DNA of 56,495 bases from Dichomitus squalens LYAD-421 SS1 (lineage: Eukaryota; Basidiomycota; Agaricomycetes; Polyporales; Polyporaceae), in NCBI RefSeq assembly GCF_000275845.1, contig NW_006766961.1, positions 38,604-95,098 of the forward strand, in the 5' to 3' direction. The notes below the pieces were generated by a model. The model did no database searches. It had not been told where the DNA came from and saw nothing but the letters and a program-made list of their open reading frames with translations. Shown here piece after piece: positions 11,548 to 55,654 of this stretch. The first letter of the stretch is position 1, and each line of letters starts with the position of its first letter. Both the position numbers and the translations under genes were made by a program.

Positions 11548-13224
11548 ATGCCTCCGGAACCTGTCAGACGAGGCGGGATGGCATCGCCACAAGTTACTTC
11601 ACGGTCGAAGAAGACGTCGGCAGCAGTACCAATGGGCGTACCGCCCGCAAGGCAGATGAGGACCTCATCCGAAGACACGTTTACGGCAGCATCTGAGAAG
11701 ATCAAAACGATAGAGGACGCTTTAAGTGTGCTGCGCAAGCATGAGATGGTGCCTGCTGCAGGTGATCCCACCGCCGAAGGGCTGATCACCGGGCTCCTTC
11801 ACGTAGGAGTTGCCCTAGTAGGCAAGAACGAATGGGCGGCGGAATGCTGCATCGGGCTAGCGGTTTATGCGAAGACAGTTATAGAGAGCGCGGTGAGTAA
11901 ATCCTTAACGGACGCTATACTCACCCGTTTCGAAGCACAGGCCACCACTTTAATCAGTGGTCTGGAAGAACGAGTGACCGCTGCAGGAGACCGCATCACG
12001 GAGCTCACAGACAAGCTAGCCGGGACGGGAGAGACTTTGAAGGAAAAGGTAGTCGCAGTGGTGGACGACATCCGCGACGGAGAACACATCAACAGAACGC
12101 CCGGTGAGCCGTTTCCACACTCTCCCCCTTTCTTGTATGCGGACGCTGTGCGCGCTACCCTCCCTGGCACCGTAAGGGCCGTGCAACTGAGTGTTGCGGA
12201 TCGCGAGAGCATCCGCGCGCGACAGATCCTAGTGGATAGATTCCCGCTATGTGGGGATGATGTCCCTTCGGAAGTCGCCATCCTTGCAAAGGCGAACGAG
12301 GCGTTAGAATTCCTTCCGCAAGGCGTACTAGACATCCCGGAGGGCCTTCGCTTCACCGCGGCGAAGACCCTTCGGAATGGAGGGGTGGTCCTAGAGATGG
12401 CCTCCCCGGAGCCGGTCAGATGGCTAGTAGCCCATGCTCAGCAATTTGAGGCAGTACTGAGTGAGCAAGCGAAGATCCGCCCACGGCAGTACAAGTTAGT
12501 GGCGGAGTTTATGCCAGTCGGATTTGACCCCTCCCAGGAAAGGGTGTGGCGACGGACAGAGGCAGACTTGGGCCTAGATGAGGGCGCAATACTGGAAGCG
12601 CGCTGGATCAAGCCAGTTCACAGGAGGTACCGCGAGCAGCGGTTTGCCCACCTATTGGTCACGGTCTCCTCTCCAGAGGCCGCCAATAGGATTATAAGGG
12701 CTGGACTGATCCTAGCTGGCCGCCATGTCAGTGTACGAAAAAATCTTGCAGAACCGATGCGGTGTGCGAAATGCCACCGCTACGACGCAGGACATCTGGC
12801 AAGGGACTGCCCTCAGGACCATGATACTTGCGGCACATGTGGACGAGCTCACAGAACGGCAGACTGCGCAGTACAGGATCTGCAACAACACCACTGTGTT
12901 AACTGCAACGTGAGGGGGCACGCTGTTTGGGACCGTGACTGTCCGGTCTTCCTAGACCTCCTGAGCAAGGCAGACGCTCGCCACCCTGAGAACAGCCTAC
13001 AATTCTTCCCAACAGCAGACCCCAATTCATGGATCCCCAAGGTGAACAGCAGGACGCCACCAATCATGCGAGGCCAGCTGAGTGAGATTGTCGCGGATGC
13101 GATCGAAAGGAGTCCGGGCGCGCCATCGCAACGAGCCAGGGCGCAGAAACATCACGCCCGCATGACGCAGACCCAGCTCCCTTTCGCTTCACAGAGATCT
13201 AACGGAACAGATGCAAGTGCATGA
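11548..13224 (+). CDS. LINE ORF1, gag-like zinc-knuckle protein
   Basis: 558 residues without interruption. The first half is hydrophilic with predicted helical/coiled-coil stretches (for example residues 95-190). Near the C terminus lie three cysteine-histidine knuckles: CAKCHRYDAGHLARDC at about residues 409-424, then CGTCGRAHRTADC, then CVNCNVRGHAVWDRDC. In Tad1/I-type LINEs this protein binds the element RNA and accompanies it to the target. The ATG at 11548 is the first in frame. The stop at 13222-13224 lies 14 bases past the ORF2 ATG, so the two frames overlap, which suits reinitiation after termination. Confidence 0.93.
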   Translation: MPPEPVRRGGMASPQVTSRSKKTSAAVPMGVPPARQMRTSSEDTFTAASEKIKTIEDALSVLRKHEMVPAAGDPTAEGLITGLLHVGVALVGKNEWAAECCIGLAVYAKTVIESAVSKSLTDAILTRFEAQATTLISGLEERVTAAGDRITELTDKLAGTGETLKEKVVAVVDDIRDGEHINRTPGEPFPHSPPFLYADAVRATLPGTVRAVQLSVADRESIRARQILVDRFPLCGDDVPSEVAILAKANEALEFLPQGVLDIPEGLRFTAAKTLRNGGVVLEMASPEPVRWLVAHAQQFEAVLSEQAKIRPRQYKLVAEFMPVGFDPSQERVWRRTEADLGLDEGAILEARWIKPVHRRYREQRFAHLLVTVSSPEAANRIIRAGLILAGRHVSVRKNLAEPMRCAKCHRYDAGHLARDCPQDHDTCGTCGRAHRTADCAVQDLQQHHCVNCNVRGHAVWDRDCPVFLDLLSKADARHPENSLQFFPTADPNSWIPKVNSRTPPIMRGQLSEIVADAIERSPGAPSQRARAQKHHARMTQTQLPFASQRSNGTDASA

Positions 13225-16200
13225 ACCGACCCATACTACGTCACAGACGAATACTCTTACTACTAACGCACTCCTCAGAATTTGGCAGCAGAACGTCAAC
13301 AAGTCGCTTTTGGCGCAACTGGATCTCCTGCACTCAGCGTCGCCGGACGACTTCGACATCCTAGCAATCCAAGAACCATACATCGACCACCTCAAGCTCA
13401 CGCGCGCGAACCCACGATGGACAGTAGTGTATCCAACCGGACACCATGATCAAGCGGACAGAACGCTCTCTGTCCTCCTTATCAACACTCGCATCTCGTC
13501 CAATGCATGGCGCCCAGTCGCGGTCCCATCACCGGACGTCTCCGCGGTCACGGTCATCTCATGCGGCCGCACAGTACACATATTCAACCTATACGTGGAT
13601 GGAGAACACGACCGGGCACTGCATGCGACAGCGAGAGCCACAAGACGGCTGCTACCCAACGACACCGAAGACGAACATCCGACCTCTAACTCCCTCCTCT
13701 GGCTAGGCGACTTCAACCGCCACAACCCACTCTGGGATGAAGCGCGCAACCACCATCTCTTCACCCCCGAAGGCCTCGATCGCTCACAATGCCTCCTCAA
13801 TCATGTCGCTTCATTCGGGCTGGAAATGGCACTACCAGCTGGCATCCCGACGCTTGAAGCCTCCCGCACCAAAAACCTCACACGCCCAGACAACGTCTTC
13901 TGCACTACTGACCTCATCGAGTCCCTCAGATCCTGCAAAACAGTGCCCCACCTGCGCCCTACTAGGACCGACCATTTTCCCATCCATACGATTTTCGATC
14001 TACCGCTTCCAAGCTCGGCTCCGACACCGCATCGCAACTTCCGAGATGTGGACTGGGCAGCATTCGATACTGCCCTCCGTGCTGCACTGCAGGGCAGCGA
14101 ACTCCCGAAGGAGATCCGAACAAAGGATGACTTCGACCGCACGCTCTCCTTACTGATGCAGGCCATCAACAGGGCGGTCGAGGAGGAGGTTCCCTGCTCC
14201 CGACCATCACCTTTCTCCAAGCGATGGTGGTCAAAGGAGCTCGCAGCCATGCGCAAGACAAAGCAGCGGCTGGGCCGAATAGCTCACAAGCACTGAGGTG
14301 ACCCTCAACACCCCACACACAGGGAGTACCGCCAATACCGCAATCGCTACGCGGACCACATCGACGCTGCGAAAAAGGACTGTTGGACCTCCTGGTTGGA
14401 CTCCGTGAATGCCCACACCATCTGGGCGGCGCATCGTTTCACCAAGAAGGGAGCATCAGACGGAGGCGGCACCCGAATTCCCCCCCTCAAAGCCATAGAC
14501 AGCGATCGCGTGCTGACAGACAATGCTGCCAAAAGCCAAGAGTTTCAGAAGACGTTTTTCTTACCGCCTGGTCCTGCCCCTGCACTGGATGCTGATCACC
14601 GCTACCCTGAACCCAAGTATCGATTTACAGGAGTTTCGGATGAACAGGTCGGACGGGCCATCCGCTCCCTGCGAGCGTTCAAGGTGCCTGGCCCGGATGG
14701 CATACCGAATGAGGTATATACTCACTGTGATGTAACGCTGACCCCAATTCTTGGCAGGCTTTTCAGAGCGACTTTCGATCTCAAGTACTACCCGGATGCC
14801 TGGAAAATATCTGACACAGTAGTCCTGCGCAAACCGGGAAAAACAGACTATACCACCGCTAAGTCCTATCGCCCCATTGCTCTCCTAGACTGCATGTCAA
14901 AGATCCTCTCACGATGCGTTGCTGACATCCTTACATATGAGGCCGAAACCAACTCCATGCTCGCCAACAATCAATTCGGAGGTCGCGCAGGCCAAACCAC
15001 AACAGACTCCATCCACCTGGTCACGAAGACGGTCAAGGACGCCTGGCGTAGAGGCAAAGTTGTCTCCATCCTCTTTCTGGACATCAAGTCAGCCTTCCCA
15101 GCCGCCACACCGGAACAACTCTTTCACGACATGCGGGAACGAGGAGTGCCGGAAGAGATAGTCGACTGGCTGCGCGAGAAGCTACGAGGTCGATGCACTT
15201 GCCTCAAGTTTGACGACTACACCTCGGACCCCATCGACATCCTCAGCAGCATTGACCAGGGCTGTCCACTCTCTGTCATCCTCTATAGATTCTACAACTC
15301 TGGACTTATTGATAGCGCTAACAAGAAGGGAGGAGAGGTCGCGGTGGGATCCATGGACGACGTCGCACTTATGGCGATAGGTTACACCTTTGACGAGACA
15401 CACCAAAAGCTGACAGACTTTTTCGAACGCCCACAGGGAGCAAACGAATGGTCACGGACGCACAACTCTACCTTCTCTCTCGACAAATTTGGACTCCTCA
15501 ATGCATCACGCACCCTCAAGAATTCGCTTGGCCCTGCACTCCAACTAGGCAGCACCCTCATAAAGCCCTCAGACCACCATCGATTCCTAGGATTCCTAAT
15601 GGACTATCGGCTCCGATACCACCAACACGTCGCATATGCGCTAGGCAAAGGGATGGCCTGGGTTGCCACCCTACGACGTCTAGCCCGATCACAGTATGGC
15701 CTTACACCGGGGCTTGTTCGTCGCCTCTATCTTGCAGTCGCAGTCCCTAGCATGCTCTACGCCGTCGACACCTTCATCACTCCAGTGCAGACACATCCAG
15801 GGCAGACACGTCGCAGTGGCTCAGTCGGCGCAGTCCGGAAACTCGCCCGGGTCCAACGGGAGGCCCTGCTCCTCATCACAGGAGCCATGAGAACTACCGC
15901 AACCGATGTGATGGCTGCCCACGCTGACTTACTCCCCTTCAACAGCTTGATAGACAAGCTCTGCCAGAGGGCTACCATCCGAATGTGCACCCTCCCGAGC
16001 ACACACCCCCTGTCGCCACACGTCAAGCGCGCTGCTACTCGCTATGTCCGGAAACATCGCTTGCAACTACATGAGCTCCTCCATCTCTACACAACCCCCG
16101 ACACCCCACAGCGCATGGAAAAAGTCCTAGCTGTTCGACATCACCCTGCATGGACTCCGGCACACTGGGTCGACATCGCGAGCTCAAAGGACGAGGCACT

Positions 16201-17221
16201 GGACAAGGACGAGGAGTGGGCACAACGACACAAGATACTGGTCTACTCGGATGGCTCGCAGAGGCGGAGTAAGGTCGGCGCATCAGCGGTACTCCTGAGG
16301 GCCGGGTCGTCCCGACCCAAGACCCTCTATTACCACCTCGGCACGGACAGGCAACATGGGATCTATGAAGCAGAGATTGTCGGCTCCATCCTGGGCACGC
16401 AGCTGCTACGAAAGGAACGCCAGGCCGTGCGAGGCCCCTCAGTGGCGCTCGACAATATGTCGTCAATTGAGGCATCAACCCAGATACGTCCACGCCCTAG
16501 TCACTACCTCACTGATTACTTTCATCGCAGGGTCCAAGAGCTTTTGGACAAGGACAAAGTAGCCCCGCGCACCGTCTTCACCCTCCGATGGGTACCGGGG
16601 CATACTGGGGTCGAGGGAAACGAGATGGCGGACATGGCGGCAAAACGCGTGGCCAAGGGGAAGTCAAGCACGACCAAATCCCTCCCACCACTCCTTCGCA
16701 AGCCGCTCCCACTAAGTGCAACCAAAGCAAAGCAGGTGCACTTAGAGGCCCTCATCAAAGACAATGCAGAGCAATGGAAAGCCAGCGCACGCGGACGCAG
16801 ACTACACCTCATCAACCAGACACTCCCCTCCCCCTCCTATATGAAGAGGATTCGATCTCTTACACGGAGGCAAGCAGCAGTACTCTTCCAGCTTCGCACC
16901 GGTCATGCCCCCCTCAATGACCACCTGCATCGTATCGCGCGAGTCGACTCGAAGCTATGCCCGGCATGCGGCTTAGCTCCGGAAACAGTGATGCACTTCC
17001 TTCTACAGTGCCCCGCCCATGCCTCAGCGCGCTCAGAACACCTATCTCGCCTCGGACGACGAGGCCGGGCCTTACCCACCCTCCTCAACTCACCCTCAGC
17101 ATTACAACCGCTACTCAAGTTTGTTAGTGCGACACGACGTCTCCAGAACACCTTTGGCAATGTGACACCCAAAGAGACGAGACAACATCAGGATCAAGAC
17201 CGGAGGGGTCGCAACGCATAG
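13211..17221 (+). pseudogene. LINE ORF2 (endonuclease-RT-RNase H) with one in-frame TGA
   Basis: The frame from 13211 runs to a TGA at 14294-14296 and stays open in the same frame to 17221, so a single nonsense codon separates the two halves. Domains: APE-type endonuclease (about 13270-14010; IQEPY, GDFNRHNPLWDE, RTDHFP); reverse transcriptase (about 14650-15520; LFLDIKSAFPAA, DQGCPLS, and MDDVAL as the catalytic DD box); RNase H (about 16230-16670; YSDGSQRR, YEAEIVG, LRWVPGHTGVEGNEMADMAA); and a C-terminal CPACG...HFLLQC knuckle. Apart from the TGA all key motifs are present. The element may have died recently, or the TGA may be a sequencing difference. Confidence 0.92.
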
Positions 17222-39483: not shown

Positions 39484-39578
39484 TGTCACGAAACAGAATA
39501 TGAAAATCGCATATTCAACAGGCCACTCAAATCCCGAACCATCGGAATGATGTGCTTTGCATTAGTACATAATCAGGG

Positions 39579-39700
39579 TGTTGGAATCTGTAGAATTCAC
39601 ACTCTAGTATCGGTTGGATGGTGTAGTGGTAACACCTCCCAGCGCATATGGGATGACCCGGGTTCAATCCCCGGTCTGACCAACTTTTCATTGTTCAACA
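39579..39700 (+). repeat. Left LTR of the TRIM
   Basis: 122 bp, TG...CA ends, identical to the right LTR. Confidence 0.92.
39612..39682 (+). tRNA. tRNA-like gene in the left LTR (positional anticodon GCA)
   Basis: A full cloverleaf can be drawn over 71 nt: acceptor GGTTGGA/TCTGACC (two wobble-type pairs), D stem GTGT/ACAC, anticodon stem TCCCA/TGGGA with loop GCGCATA, T stem CCGGG/CCCGG with loop TTCAATC, discriminator A. Pol III boxes are intact: A box TGGTGTAGTGG, B box GGTTCAATCC. Position 33 is C instead of the near-universal T, so decoding as tRNA-Cys is doubtful; the D- and T-arm sequences look closer to Glu/Gln-type tRNAs. Its likely role is a Pol III promoter for the element. Confidence 0.7.
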
Positions 39701-39712
39701 GGTTATGAGCCC
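39701..39712 (+). other. Primer-binding site of the TRIM
   Basis: GGTTATGAGCCC follows the left LTR directly and is complementary to the anticodon arm of initiator tRNA-Met (GGGCTCATAACC). Priming from an internal half of tRNAiMet is known for copia-type elements. Confidence 0.8.
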
Positions 39713-39826
39713 TGTGTGACGCTTCGAAGGGAGCAGGGTCAGAGAACCCCCGCCTCGGGAAATGTGCCTGAGGGTAACTTCATTTGGAAAAGTTGGTTCC
39801 TTGATTGATCACCAGAGTGTGACTTC

Positions 39827-39834
39827 AGGGGGAG
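39827..39834 (+). other. Polypurine tract of the TRIM
   Basis: AGGGGGAG immediately before the right LTR, identical to the copia tract at 285-292. Confidence 0.85.
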
Positions 39835-39956
39835 TGTTGGAATCTGTAGAATTCACACTCTAGTATCGGTTGGATGGTGTAGTGGTAACACCTCCCAGCG
39901 CATATGGGATGACCCGGGTTCAATCCCCGGTCTGACCAACTTTTCATTGTTCAACA
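39835..39956 (+). repeat. Right LTR of the TRIM
   Basis: 122 bp, identical to the left LTR. Confidence 0.92.
39868..39938 (+). tRNA. tRNA-like gene in the right LTR
   Basis: Exact second copy of the sequence at 39612-39682, offset by 256 bp. Confidence 0.7.
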
Positions 39957-40199
39957 CAGGGTGAGCGCGTTCAGCCACCTGTCGCATTAGCTATGGTGGC
40001 GGCCTACCTAGCTGATAGCCGAGCAGCTGATTTCCCCAAGGATATTGTGGGGCGACCATATGAGCCAAGATATGGGCCCATTGCATTTGCAGATATTCAG
40101 GCTTTGCAAGAAAATTTGCGCGGTCGGTGTACAGCAAGCTGTGGGAGCGCATAATCATACCTGCCACATTAGCTCACTGGCATGATCTCCGACCTGGGT

Positions 40200-42376: not shown

Positions 42377-44650
42377 CTACGCACGCTTGAACGCCTGCCA
42401 CCCACCCATCCCAAGTCAGCACAACGCCCCATCGCCAAAGGAAAACGAAGTACGTACCTCGTTGATCCTCCTCCCCCTCCAGCTCTTATCCAAGTAATGC
42501 CTCATCCGTCGTATATCTCCCCACATGAAGAGCGGGACGACGATGAGTATGACCGGGATTGCGATCTCCCAGAACAGGACGTCGCTGTTGTGATTCACGG
42601 ACCACATAGGGGTGAAGTTCACGCCCTGCGCAAGCATACGACACAACGTCAGCACGCGGGAGACTGAACATGATCGAGTGGAAAGGAGATGGCGGCACGC
42701 ACGAAGTACCCGGTGAGGAGCGTGAGCGGGAGGCAAATGATCGTCACCGTGGTCAGACGGCGCCTGGTCCAGGAGACATGTCAACAGAGTCCTGGCTATG
42801 CTGTGGGGATGTACACGCACATTACTTCGTTCATCTCGTATGACGCCATCTACAAACGTCAGGCCTTCACTCAGACTGTCCAAACACAACGCAGGATCGA
42901 CGAGCAAGCAATGGGGGACTCACGTTGAACGTGTAATTCATCAGGTTCTCCGTAATGCCCGCGACCATATCCAAGCTCGTCAGGATATACTCCATATGGT
43001 CGCACACATCAGCCTGAACAAGGACGATGTCAATCAGCCTCATAACCCTACCACACACCTGGCTCCAGACTACGAACGAACAAACGCACCAAGTAGATCT
43101 TCGCCTTATGGCTCATGTACCCCCCCAACTGCGTCTTGTCATCCTCGTTATCCGGGTCCCTCAGAGCGAGCGCGCGGTCCGCGTCGTACCGCCTGAGCCC
43201 GTATATGAGCGTCTTGACCGGCTCGAGCGTTCGTTTATGCAGCACGAGGTCGCCCTGGAGTATATGCACTACGGCACAGCCGAACCGTCAGCGTCCCCGT
43301 GAGCCGCAGAGCGAATAGATCGAGCCGCGAGACGACTGACGTCTGCGGACGGTCTTCATGCTCGGCTTGAGCAGGACCTGCTCTTCCATCTCGAGGATCC
43401 GGCCTTGGTACTCCTCGACGACCTCCAGCGCCTGGTCGACGACTGGTGGGAGGAACGCAGACGTCAGCGTGATGCGCGTGCGCCGCATACAGCCCGACGA
43501 GAAGCGGACTGACCGAGGTCGAGCAACGACTGGACGAGCAACGCCGGGTCCGCGCTCGTCCGCACGACCGTGTCCCTCTGCCTCAACCGCTCCGCGATCG
43601 GCGACGTCAGCGCCAGCGTCGTGTCTATCCCCCACCCGTGCGTCGAGTCAGCAACGCCCTCGCCCGGCAAGACGGAGACGCACCGTTGTGTATCGACACG
43701 ACCGTCCCGTCCCGCAGCAAGAAGATGCACATGGGGTGGATCTGCACGTCGACCCTGTCGCCCTTCTTCAGCTCGCCCACCAGCTTCTGGTACCGCGCCT
43801 TCTTGCTGCTGTCTCCTATCCGTATCCCTGCGGCTCCCATCGCCGCGAAGGGCCACTGCCCGGATGCGTTTGTCGGCGCGCGCGGGGAGCCCTCGACGTC
43901 GCGCGCTCCTGGCGGACGGGACCAAGGGAGGTCGATACTGGCCTTCTCTTTCATCCCTTCCGCCTTCGGGGCGCGGCGCAGGGAGGAGAAACCGGTCGCG
44001 CCCACGCTCCCGAACACCGTTCGCTCCTCTGCTTCGTCGGAGTCGTCGTTGGCCCGAGCGCTGGCAATCATGCGGCGCTTGAGGTCGGCCTCTTCCTCAT
44101 CGTCCATTTGCGCCGGGGATTCTGAGCGGGGCATACTGGCGAACATGTCCGCGGGAGAGGTGTCCTCGGGGGTACGGTCATCTGAGAAGAAGGACGAGGA
44201 TGCGGAGGAGGCGAGGGTGTGGACGAGGATGCGGACGAAGAGGTGTTGCGGGTAGTAGTCGGCCTTGGAACGCGGGTGGCCGCGCTGGTGGAGGACGTCC
44301 TCCAGCGCCAGCGGGTGCAGGTCTGCAAGTCACAGACACGTTCGGACGTCGCGTTAGCACTGAGCACCCAAGATCACCGCTGATGAACGCGGCGCACCGT
44401 ACCTGAGCGCGAGCGCGCTGACGACGTCCCAGATCGATCCACCGCACACGCACTCACGGCTCCCGTACCCCGCTCGACCCGAGCTCGCTCCCCTCCCAGA
44501 AGAACTTGAGGAACTCGCCATTGTCCATTCGCGCGGACCTCGCACGCGTCGTCGAGCGGACGTTCTCCACCCCTGGCGGATGTGGCCCTACTTGAGGAAC
44601 GCTGCGGAAGAGCCAAGGTGGACCTGCCGTAAAGCCCGCCATCGTCGCAG
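42377..44650 (-). pseudogene. CorA3: CorA-type Mg2+ transporter without its N-terminal exon
   Basis: Exons 2-10 of the CorA4 model are recognisable and nearly all open: MFASMPRSESPAQMDDEE, YQKLVGELKKGDRVDVQIHP, LALTSPIAERLRQRD, VVDQALEVVEEYQGRILEM, VHILQGDLVLHKRTLEP, YDHMEYILTSLDMVAG, and the membrane exon ending RGRRINE plus AFKRA. The pore motif is GVN. The first exon is cut: in the AFLKYGH-equivalent segment TAC has become TAG, nine or so codons are deleted before RMDN, and nothing upstream of about 44650 matches the MPRENSFSDSD start. A protein starting inside exon 2 is conceivable but would lack part of the funnel domain. Confidence 0.85.
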
Positions 44651-53048: not shown

Positions 53049-55654
53049 CTATGCACGTTTGAACGCCTGCCATCCACCCATCCCAAGTCAGCACAACGCC
53101 CCATCAGCAGGTGGAAGCAAGAGACAAACCTTGTTTATCCTCCTCCGCCTCCAGCTCTTATCCAAGTAATGCCTCATCCGTCGTATATCTCCCCACATGA
53201 AGAGCGGGACGACGATGAGTATGACCGGGATTGCGATCTCCCAGAACAGGAGGTCGCTGTTGTGGTTCACGGACCACATAGGGGTGAAGTTCATGCCCTG
53301 CGCAAGCATACGACATAACGTCAGCACGCGGGAGACTGAATATGATCGAGTGGAAAGGAAATGGCGGCACGCACGAAGTACCCGGTGAGGAGCGTGAGCG
53401 GGAGGCAAATGATCGTCACCGTGGTCAGACGGCGCCTGGTCCAGGAGACATGTCAACAGAGTCCTGGCTATGCTGTGATGTACACGCACATTACTTCGTT
53501 CATCTCGTATGACGCCATCTATAAACGTCAAGCCTTCACTCAGACTGTCCGAACACAACGCAGGATCGACAAGCAAGCAATGGGGGACTCACGTTGAACG
53601 TGTAATTCATCAGGTTCTCCGTAATGCCCGCGACCATATCCAAGCTCGCCAGAATGTACTCCATATGGTCGTACACATCAGCCTCAACAAGGTCGATGCC
53701 AATCAGCCACATTGCCCTCACACCCAGCTCCCTCCCGCGAACGAACGAACGCACCAAGTAGATCTTCGCCTTATGGCTCATGTACCCCCCCAACTGCGTC
53801 TTGTCATCCCCGTCGTCCGGGTCCCGCAGCGCGAGCGCGCGGTCCGCGTCGTACCGCCTGAGCCCGTATATGAGCGTCTTGACCGGCTCGAGCGTTCGTT
53901 TATGCAGCACGAGGTCGCCCTGGAGTATATGCACTACGGAACAGCCGAACCGTCAGCGTCCCCGTGAGTCGCAGAGCGAATTGGACCGCGATACGACTGA
54001 CGTCTGCGGACGGTCTTCATGCTCGGCTTGAGCAGGACCTGCTCCTCGATCTCGAGGATCCGGCCTTGGTACTCCTCGACGACCTCCAGCGCCTGGTCGA
54101 CGACTGGTGTGAGAAACATGCACGTTAGCGCGATCAGCGTGTGCCGCGCACAGCTGATAGACTCACCGAGGTCGAGCAGCGACTGGACGAGCAACGCTGG
54201 GTCCGCGCTCGTCCGCAACACCGTGTCCCGCTGCCTCAGCCGCTCTGCAATCGGCGCAGTCAGCGCCAGCGTCGTGTCTGTCCCCACCCGCGAGTCAAGT
54301 CAGCACCACCCTCCGAGTCGCCGGGGAGGACGTAGACGCACCGTTGTGAATCGACACGACCGTCCCGTCCCGGAGCAAGAACACGCACATCGGGTGGATC
54401 TGCACGTCCACCCGGTCGCCCTTCTTCAGCTCTCCCACCAGCTTCTGGTACCGCGCCTTCTTGCTGCTCTCCCCTATCCGTATCGCGGCGGGTGCCATCG
54501 CCGCGAAAGGCCACTGCCCGGGTGCGCGCGGGGAGCCCTCGGCGTCATGCGCCCTCGGACGACTCCAGGGGAGGCCAATGCCGGACATCTTCTCCTTCCT
54601 CCGCCTCGCCTTCGGGGAGCGGCGCAGGGTGGAAAACACGGACGCGCGGGCGCTCTCGAACACTGTCCGCTCGTCTGCTTCGTCGGAATCGTCGTTGACG
54701 GGGGCGCTGGCGCTCATGCGGCGCTTGAGGTCGGCCTCTTCCTCGTCGTCCATCTGTGCCGGGGATTCTGAGCGCGGCATACTGGCGAACATGTCCGCGG
54801 GAGAGGTGTCCTCGGGGGTACGGTCGTCTGAGAAGAAGGACGAGGATGCGGAGGAGGCAAGGGTGTGGACGAGGATGCGGACGAAGAGGTGTTGCGGGTA
54901 GTAGTCGGCCTTGGAACGCGGGTGGCCGCGCTGGTGGAGGACGTCCTCGACCGCGAGCGGGTGCAGGTCTGTACGCCGCAAACACGTTCGGGCGCCGCGT
55001 TCCCCTCAGCACTGAGCACGCAAAGTCATCGCGAACGAACGAAGGCGGCGCACCGTACTTGAGCGCAAGCGCGCTGATGACGTCCCAGCTGATGCCCCCG
55101 ACGTCGATCCACCGCACCCGCACCCACGGCTCCCGTGCCCCGCTCGCCCCGCGCTCGCCCTCCTCCCCGAGGAACTTGAGGAACTCGCTATTGTCCATCC
55201 GCGCGGAGCCCACCCGCGTCGTCGAGTAGTCGTTCACCTCGATAGTGCACCGCTGGCGGATGTGGCCGTACTTGAGGAACGCGGCGGCCGAGCGCGGGTC
55301 TGCGCCTGGCTCCGCGCCGACGCCGCGTCGCGCGAGGAGGGAGGACATGGAGCGCATGGCAATGACCTTGCGGACGGCGGAGCGGAAACGGACAGTGGGG
55401 GTGAGGAAGATGGGCTGCTGCTGTTGCTGTTGCTGTTGTTGTGGGGTGGTGAGTGGGGCGGGGGTAGGGGATGTGTAGCTGTGTTTGAGCGGGTGGTGCT
55501 GTGGATACCTGTTCTCTGCAGATGCATTGGTATTGTCGTTACTGCGACGGGTAGCAGGGGGGCCGGCGTATGTTGGAGAGGTCGCGAGGCCTTCTTCGAG
55601 GTCGGGGGTGAGGGAGCGGCCGTCGGAGTCGCTGAAGCTGTTCTCGCGCGGCAT
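53049..55654 (-). CDS. CorA4: CorA/Alr-type magnesium transporter (intact)
   Basis: Ten exons (- strand): 55654-55054, 54968-54342, 54277-54167, 54103-54002, 53933-53755, 53682-53593, 53518-53490, 53435-53375, 53297-53130, 53066-53049. All have GT..AG borders and sum to 1986 nt, exactly 661 codons plus stop. The start MPRENSFSDSD is conserved with CorA1; an ATG 168 nt upstream is in frame but not conserved. Residues ~72-81 are a Gln run. The cytosolic funnel includes DLHPLAVEDVLH and YQKLVGELKKGDRVDVQ. Two C-terminal helices flank the pore signature G601-M-N, followed by FTPMW and a basic tail RRRRINK. CorA/Alr proteins are pentameric Mg2+ channels, in fungi at the plasma membrane or vacuole. 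The only CorA copy here with both an intact frame and GMN. Confidence 0.92.

Follow-up and report, generated by a model that had tools for sequence, protein, structure and literature searches.

The locus considered here raises the question of how an element without a gene of its own is propagated in a fungal genome. It lies in the window, i.e., the whole stretch of 56,495 nucleotides of contig NW_006766961.1 of Dichomitus squalens LYAD-421 SS1 that was analysed, where positions 39579-39956 are occupied by a 378-bp element composed of a 122-bp long terminal repeat (LTR), a 134-bp internal region, and a second 122-bp LTR, with a tRNA-like sequence in each LTR. By its anatomy, it fits a terminal-repeat retrotransposon in miniature (TRIM) of the Helenus type, a tRNA-bearing and non-coding mini LTR retrotransposon. 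Searches of the genome (40.3 Mb, 116 contigs) revealed hybrids in which parts of this TRIM are joined, at the primer-binding site (PBS), to one resident Ty1/Copia family. It thus appears quite likely that the TRIM is a satellite of that family, mobilized by the steps proposed below.

The element and its hybrids with a Copia family

The two LTRs (39579-39700 and 39835-39956, TGTTG...CAACA) are identical letter by letter (122/122 bp) and are enclosed by a 5-bp target-site duplication (TSD), CAGGG, read directly at 39574-39578 and 39957-39961. The non-coding internal region (39701-39834) begins with the 14-nt PBS GGTTATGAGCCCTG (39701-39714), the region in which the hybrids cross over, and ends with the polypurine tract (PPT) AGGGGGAG (39827-39834); like the LTRs and the features within them, these lie on the plus strand. 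The element has no reading frame of note, its longest stop-to-stop stretch being 60 codons. The initial annotation had described the identical LTRs, the TSD, the PPT, and the lack of a protein, all of which were found as described, and its attribution to the Helenus group of TRIMs is supported by the LTRs, the PBS, the PPT, the 5-bp TSD, and the tRNA-like sequences in the LTRs.

The PBS is the exact 14-nt complement of the anticodon arm in a host initiator tRNA-Met gene on contig C56 (contigs are denoted here by such handles). Initiator tRNA-Met, the primer named in the initial annotation, is thus the right tRNA, but the pairing is internal and not with the usual 3′ end; the primer would therefore be the 5′ half of this tRNA. 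Initiator tRNA-Met is also the primer of Drosophila Copia and yeast Ty5.

With regard to the LTRs, ARAGORN calls a 71-nt tRNA-Cys (GCA) at 39612-39682 and again at 39868-39938, and RF00005 scores 48.5 bits (E 1.7e-9) in both in a targeted Rfam scan (gathering score 29). A whole-window Rfam scan at the gathering threshold gave nothing, and it is the targeted scan together with ARAGORN that carries the tRNA call. An Rfam search of the element with E up to 1 returned tRNA and a weak plastid family, and no 5S.

The tRNA-bearing LTR (tRNA-LTR) occurs nine times at eight loci, and the internal region at four places, two of them not full length; the further copies on which the initial annotation had made its reading depend are thus present. 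Since the flanks of the loci are unrelated, these are separate insertions. Distinct 5-bp TSDs, also anticipated, were seen in part: CAGGG in the window and CCATG around a solo LTR on C18, a directly flanking TSD being readable at two of the eight loci. Relative to the window LTR, the number of changes (of 122) is 0 on C58, 1 on C71, 2 on C18 and C17, 3 on C84 and C45, and 11 on C23, including Copia-like junction bases (one on C84, two on C23). The copy on C58 matches the window element at 252/252 positions, and these two copies, the latter with its identical LTRs, look the youngest. One pattern spanning from box B to the PBS found five places, all belonging to this TRIM family and none to another Helenus family with the same PBS, and one 25-letter pattern had no matches in IMG/VR.

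Four of the eight tRNA-LTR loci are hybrids. On C84, C45, and C23, the tRNA-LTR and the PBS are followed by a leader that differs from the TRIM body. On C17, the arrangement is reciprocal: 368 bp of a Copia LTR (up to the contig edge) is followed by the PBS, the TRIM body, the PPT, and a tRNA-LTR. At the other places of the TRIM body, the preceding sequence is a tRNA-LTR (C79 and C71) or a gap (C58). A genome query with the leader gave nine matches at eight loci, where it is preceded by a Copia LTR at five (C73, C5, C82, C44, and C15) and by the tRNA-LTR at the three forward hybrids. At the former five, the LTR ends in ...GAGTTTATCA, and the PBS shared with the TRIM comes next, with a single differing base on C44; at a ninth place, at the end of its stretch on C29, a Copia LTR is followed by the PBS and then by 10 nt of the leader. 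The last LTR bases at the junction are TRIM-like on C45, Copia-like at one site on C84, and Copia-like at two on C23, small differences that fit separate crossovers at slightly different points.

The LTR of this Copia family is 547 bp long and matches at least 42 places in the genome (40 of 100 candidates were scored). Among 20 such loci that were fetched, both ends could be placed by script in 18, with a 5-bp TSD at eight, the PBS directly after the LTR at four, and the purine-rich ATTGAGTGGGAG, similar to the PPT of the TRIM, before two. Behind the leader on C73, a Copia gag (Retrotran_gag_2, E 6.7e-16) and Pol_BBD (3.4e-12) were detected, together with a gag_pre-integrs domain (1.5e-9) in a frame other than that of gag. 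The gag stretch has four places in the genome and is whole only on C73; most helper coding sequence is therefore outside the assembly. Protein matching of the helper gag gave two hits, the one with a name being Ganoderma sinense, whereas a protein of the window had ten, of which the four named ones are Dichomitus squalens. On C7, a pol C-terminus precedes a 3′ LTR and shows 35-48% identity to other Copia elements of the genome. Ten of eleven RVT_2 matches, searched for the helper reverse transcriptase, have a C-terminus diverged to this extent (35-48% identity) and represent other families; the eleventh (C27:10608-10808), in a locus with 1,490 N, gave no C-terminal match. One RVT_2 locus, on C16, lies 3.1 kb from a piece of the helper LTR and was rejected as the helper, its C-terminus being only 35% identical and that of another Copia family.

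Homology between the TRIM body and the C73 leader was detected over their initial 16 nt and no further (14 nt in copies with CG at that place), and the 122-bp and 547-bp LTRs share no significant similarity (best E 0.12). What the TRIM and the Copia family have in common is thus the PBS stretch (14-16 nt), the terminal TGTTG, and a similar purine tract.

The proposed course of mobilization is as follows. The TRIM RNA would be packaged together with Copia RNA in Copia particles, its reverse transcription would be primed by the 5′ half of initiator tRNA-Met, and the Copia integrase would insert the product, giving the 5-bp TSD. Since the PBS is common to the two RNAs, DNA strands under synthesis could sometimes switch between them at this site. 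Hybrids of this kind would be expected from strand transfer between co-packaged RNAs: the two RNAs would have been reverse-transcribed within a single particle, where a DNA strand that ended in the PBS would have moved to the other template. The arrangement on C17 would be the expected product of plus-strand strong-stop DNA transfer, and a switch during minus-strand synthesis may be needed instead on C84 and C23, where the crossover lies just upstream of the PBS; both routes require TRIM and Copia copies to be together. Mobilization in trans, which the initial annotation had suggested, is thereby supported and strengthened. The reciprocal hybrids, which look like a record of TRIM and Copia copies meeting in reverse transcription, point to a single family as the helper and suggest that a common primer site, rather than common LTRs, marks a TRIM-helper pair.

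Some further features of these copies were observed. The C23 hybrid (C23:24430-25297, or L028:4431-5298) begins with ATCGT directly before the tRNA-LTR, and its leader homology ends ...TTTCTA, followed by ATCGT; the two ATCGT copies resemble a TSD, the right end being truncated and lacking a 3′ LTR. Its leader is split by an insert of about 530 bp (L028:4688-5221), which to the eye resembles a nested short interspersed nuclear element (SINE): it contains a tRNA-like stretch that includes GGTTCAATCC and is bounded on either side by near-repeats TGCCTGCC; the stretch was called neither by ARAGORN nor by Rfam, in the same Rfam scan that missed the tRNA-like sequence of the C23 LTR. In the helper copy at C44:110672-113873 (L046), roughly the first 300 bp of the 5′ LTR have given way to another sequence, which contains a box-B-like GGTTCGATCC and may be a SINE that inserted there; neither ARAGORN nor Rfam makes a call in it. 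A SINE in an LTR is the route proposed for the birth of such TRIMs (Kojima 2024, PMC10886601). The C71 copy of the TRIM (L024:5919-6423) stops after 79 nt of the body and is followed by what looks, by eye, like LTR and leader sequence from a different Copia-like family in inverted orientation. On C18 (L027:4320-5021), a solo helper LTR (TSD CCAAG) and the solo tRNA-LTR stand in the same orientation with 33 bp between them. Downstream of the C58 copy, where a gene insertion was considered, a translation stays open for more than 100 codons, and a Pfam search of its first 100 residues was empty.

Transcription and alternative readings

Within the tRNA-like sequence of the 5′ LTR, motif reading gives an A-box-like TGGTGTAGTGG (39619-39629) and a B-box-like GGTTCAATCCC (39661-39671). 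TTTT is the minimal terminator of RNA polymerase III (Pol III). On the sense strand of the element it occurs only at 39685-39688, in the 5′ LTR, and at 39941-39944, in the 3′ LTR. Pol III transcription from the left LTR, as put forward in the initial annotation, is possible; the RNA would have to read through the former run and would end at the latter, the possible 3′ end of the element RNA. Across the nine LTR copies, the B-box-like motif is unchanged in all, and the A-box-like motif and TTTT are each kept in eight, which is mild support, most copies differing little. The Pol III transcription of Helenus is itself called unvalidated by Kojima (PMC10886601).

Several observations weigh against the proposed satellite. 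Box A reads TGGTG, with YGG and GGTTC also present, and departs from the TRGCY of most Helenus elements, in which box A (TRGCY, YGG) and box B (GGTTC) are conserved (Kojima 2024, section 3.5, PMC10886601). TTTT within the 5′ LTR could end Pol III transcription early, and an Rfam scan of the C23 region (E up to 1) was empty, missing the LTR tRNA-like sequence that ARAGORN calls. On the helper side, no reverse transcriptase or integrase core is assigned to the family, and the C73 copy may be dead, its gag and pre-integrase stretches lying in different frames. As for the hybrids, the right ends of those on C84 and C45 fall in runs of N longer than 10 kb, that on C23 is truncated and without a 3′ LTR, and that on C17 is cut off within its Copia LTR, where the contig ends; the predicted far-side TSDs on C84, C45, and C17 were absent in three exact-pattern tests.

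The alternative that survives best retains the TRIM and its helper and replaces the promoter: transcription would be by RNA polymerase II, and the tRNA-like sequence would be the relic of a SINE in an ancestral LTR or be kept for another reason. We regard this as a reasonable but less probable account. One host tRNA gene that was read ends in nine Ts, and four Ts may on this single example be a weak Pol III stop, yet this does not compel read-through. The retention of both box-like motifs, even in the most diverged copy (11/122 changes), speaks against this account, a weak argument among copies so similar.

It is unlikely that the hybrids are assembly misjoins, or products of DNA-level recombination between neighbouring repeats, and are hence uninformative on mobilization. 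Many of these repeats coincide with assembly gaps, a common PBS could mislead an assembler, and no intact right end or far-side TSD was seen. On the other hand, there are four separate junctions, each with private differences, and about sixteen bp offers little length for homologous recombination to act on. In addition, both parts of the C23 hybrid have diverged, with 11/122 changes in the LTR and 10/104 in the leader relative to C5 (the other six leaders have 1 to 7); halves that aged alike speak against a misjoin.

Slightly less probable still is that the tRNA-LTR was captured by Copia, the hybrids forming a Copia subfamily with a tRNA-type promoter and not all being dead single events. The LTR search found no further tRNA-LTR on C84 or C45, which leans towards unlike ends, or towards loss in the gaps. 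Such a subfamily, if real, would break the expectation that Pol III LTRs stay confined to miniature elements. In a milder form, the TRIM would be an interfering satellite, each cross-transfer spoiling a helper copy.

That a working tRNA-Cys gene was captured and multiplied for the host is very improbable. Eight of the nine LTR copies are called tRNA-Cys (GCA) by ARAGORN, seven of them as 71-nt genes; the anticodon of the C23 copy is called ACA. In the standard numbering of tRNA positions, the anticodon loop carries U at position 33. In the loop here, GCGCATA, position 33 is C and position 37 is U, and the minimum-free-energy structure of the 71 nt (z -1.54) does not form a cloverleaf. Because U33 is lacking and the fold is not a cloverleaf, the sequence is more plausibly a promoter than a tRNA used in decoding. 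The tRNA-like gene reported for each LTR is hence upheld by RF00005 and ARAGORN as a resemblance and is doubtful as a decoding tRNA, and the suggestion that each transposition spreads tRNA genes becomes doubtful as well, tRNA-like promoters being spread instead. In many Helenus tRNAs isotypes disagree, and few are judged able to encode a tRNA (Kojima 2024, PMC10886601).

Finally, a simple tandem duplication of a tRNA-containing segment, which the initial annotation had named as a competing explanation and which two identical repeats with 134 bp between them might suggest, is ruled out by dispersed copies at eight loci with unrelated flanks, as well as by the CAGGG flanks, the PBS and PPT in place, and the solo LTR on C18 with its own TSD.

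Other features of the window

A non-LTR retrotransposon occupies 11548-17221, with two open frames, an Exo_endo_phos_2 endonuclease, and RVT_1 and RNase H stretches; a Pfam search of the first of these frames (11548-13224) was empty. Two regions about 10.7 kb apart, 43358-44125 and 54019-54771, have translations that are alike by eye and are perhaps duplicated copies of one minus-strand gene. No Pfam family was found for the two minus-strand frames at 54019-54771.

Comparison with known systems

Helenus (TRIMp3) is the name given to tRNA-bearing TRIMs in Kojima 2024 (PMC10886601), where elements of 311-1263 bp are described; fungal members have 5-bp TSDs and predominantly a PBS for half of initiator tRNA-Met, and the group occurs in basidiomycetes and is already listed in the Agaricomycetes (Agaricus, Coprinopsis, and Amylostereum). 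The present element agrees with this description in the tRNA-like sequence of each LTR, the PBS and its half-tRNA primer, the PPT, the 5-bp TSD, and a size within the range, and is a further Helenus member, assigned by anatomy rather than sequence descent. The hybrids are the new addition. In that paper, a Copia helper of fungal Helenus is inferred from likeness of the PBS, the length of the TSD, and a single internal match that links elements from two rust species, whereas here reciprocal hybrids in the same genome point to the helper family. The terms 'chimer' and 'template switch' do not occur in its main text, and a literature search at the level of titles and abstract beginnings found no earlier report of Helenus-Copia hybrids among the papers listed. 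How the dependence of a TRIM on an autonomous element is maintained is stated there to be not known; the hybrids make this dependence testable in one fungus.

Cassandra, the 5S-bearing TRIM of plants, likewise has a gene with a Pol III promoter inside both LTRs; the gene is 5S there and a tRNA-like sequence, with putative transcription, here. Its RNA starts in the 5′ LTR, reaches the 5S sequence of the other LTR, and has a terminal duplication of 18 bp (cited in PMC10886601), and the read-through and stop at TTTT proposed above would resemble this transcription as described by Kojima, who reports no indication of a helper for Cassandra. Priming from the anticodon loop is known from Drosophila Copia and yeast Ty5 (cited in Kojima 2024, section 3.6, PMC10886601). 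Both resemble the present element in a PBS against the anticodon arm of initiator tRNA-Met and a 5-bp TSD; the TRIM differs in being gene-free, and its helper is known from Copia gag and Pol_BBD domains. The pairing of a miniature element with a larger coding relative also recalls TRIMs of plants that have autonomous relatives (Gao 2016, PMC4717578) and SMART/FRetro64 (cited in PMC10886601). Those pairs share LTR or internal sequence, whereas the sharing detected between this TRIM and its Copia family consists of the PBS, the terminal TGTTG, and the purine tract.
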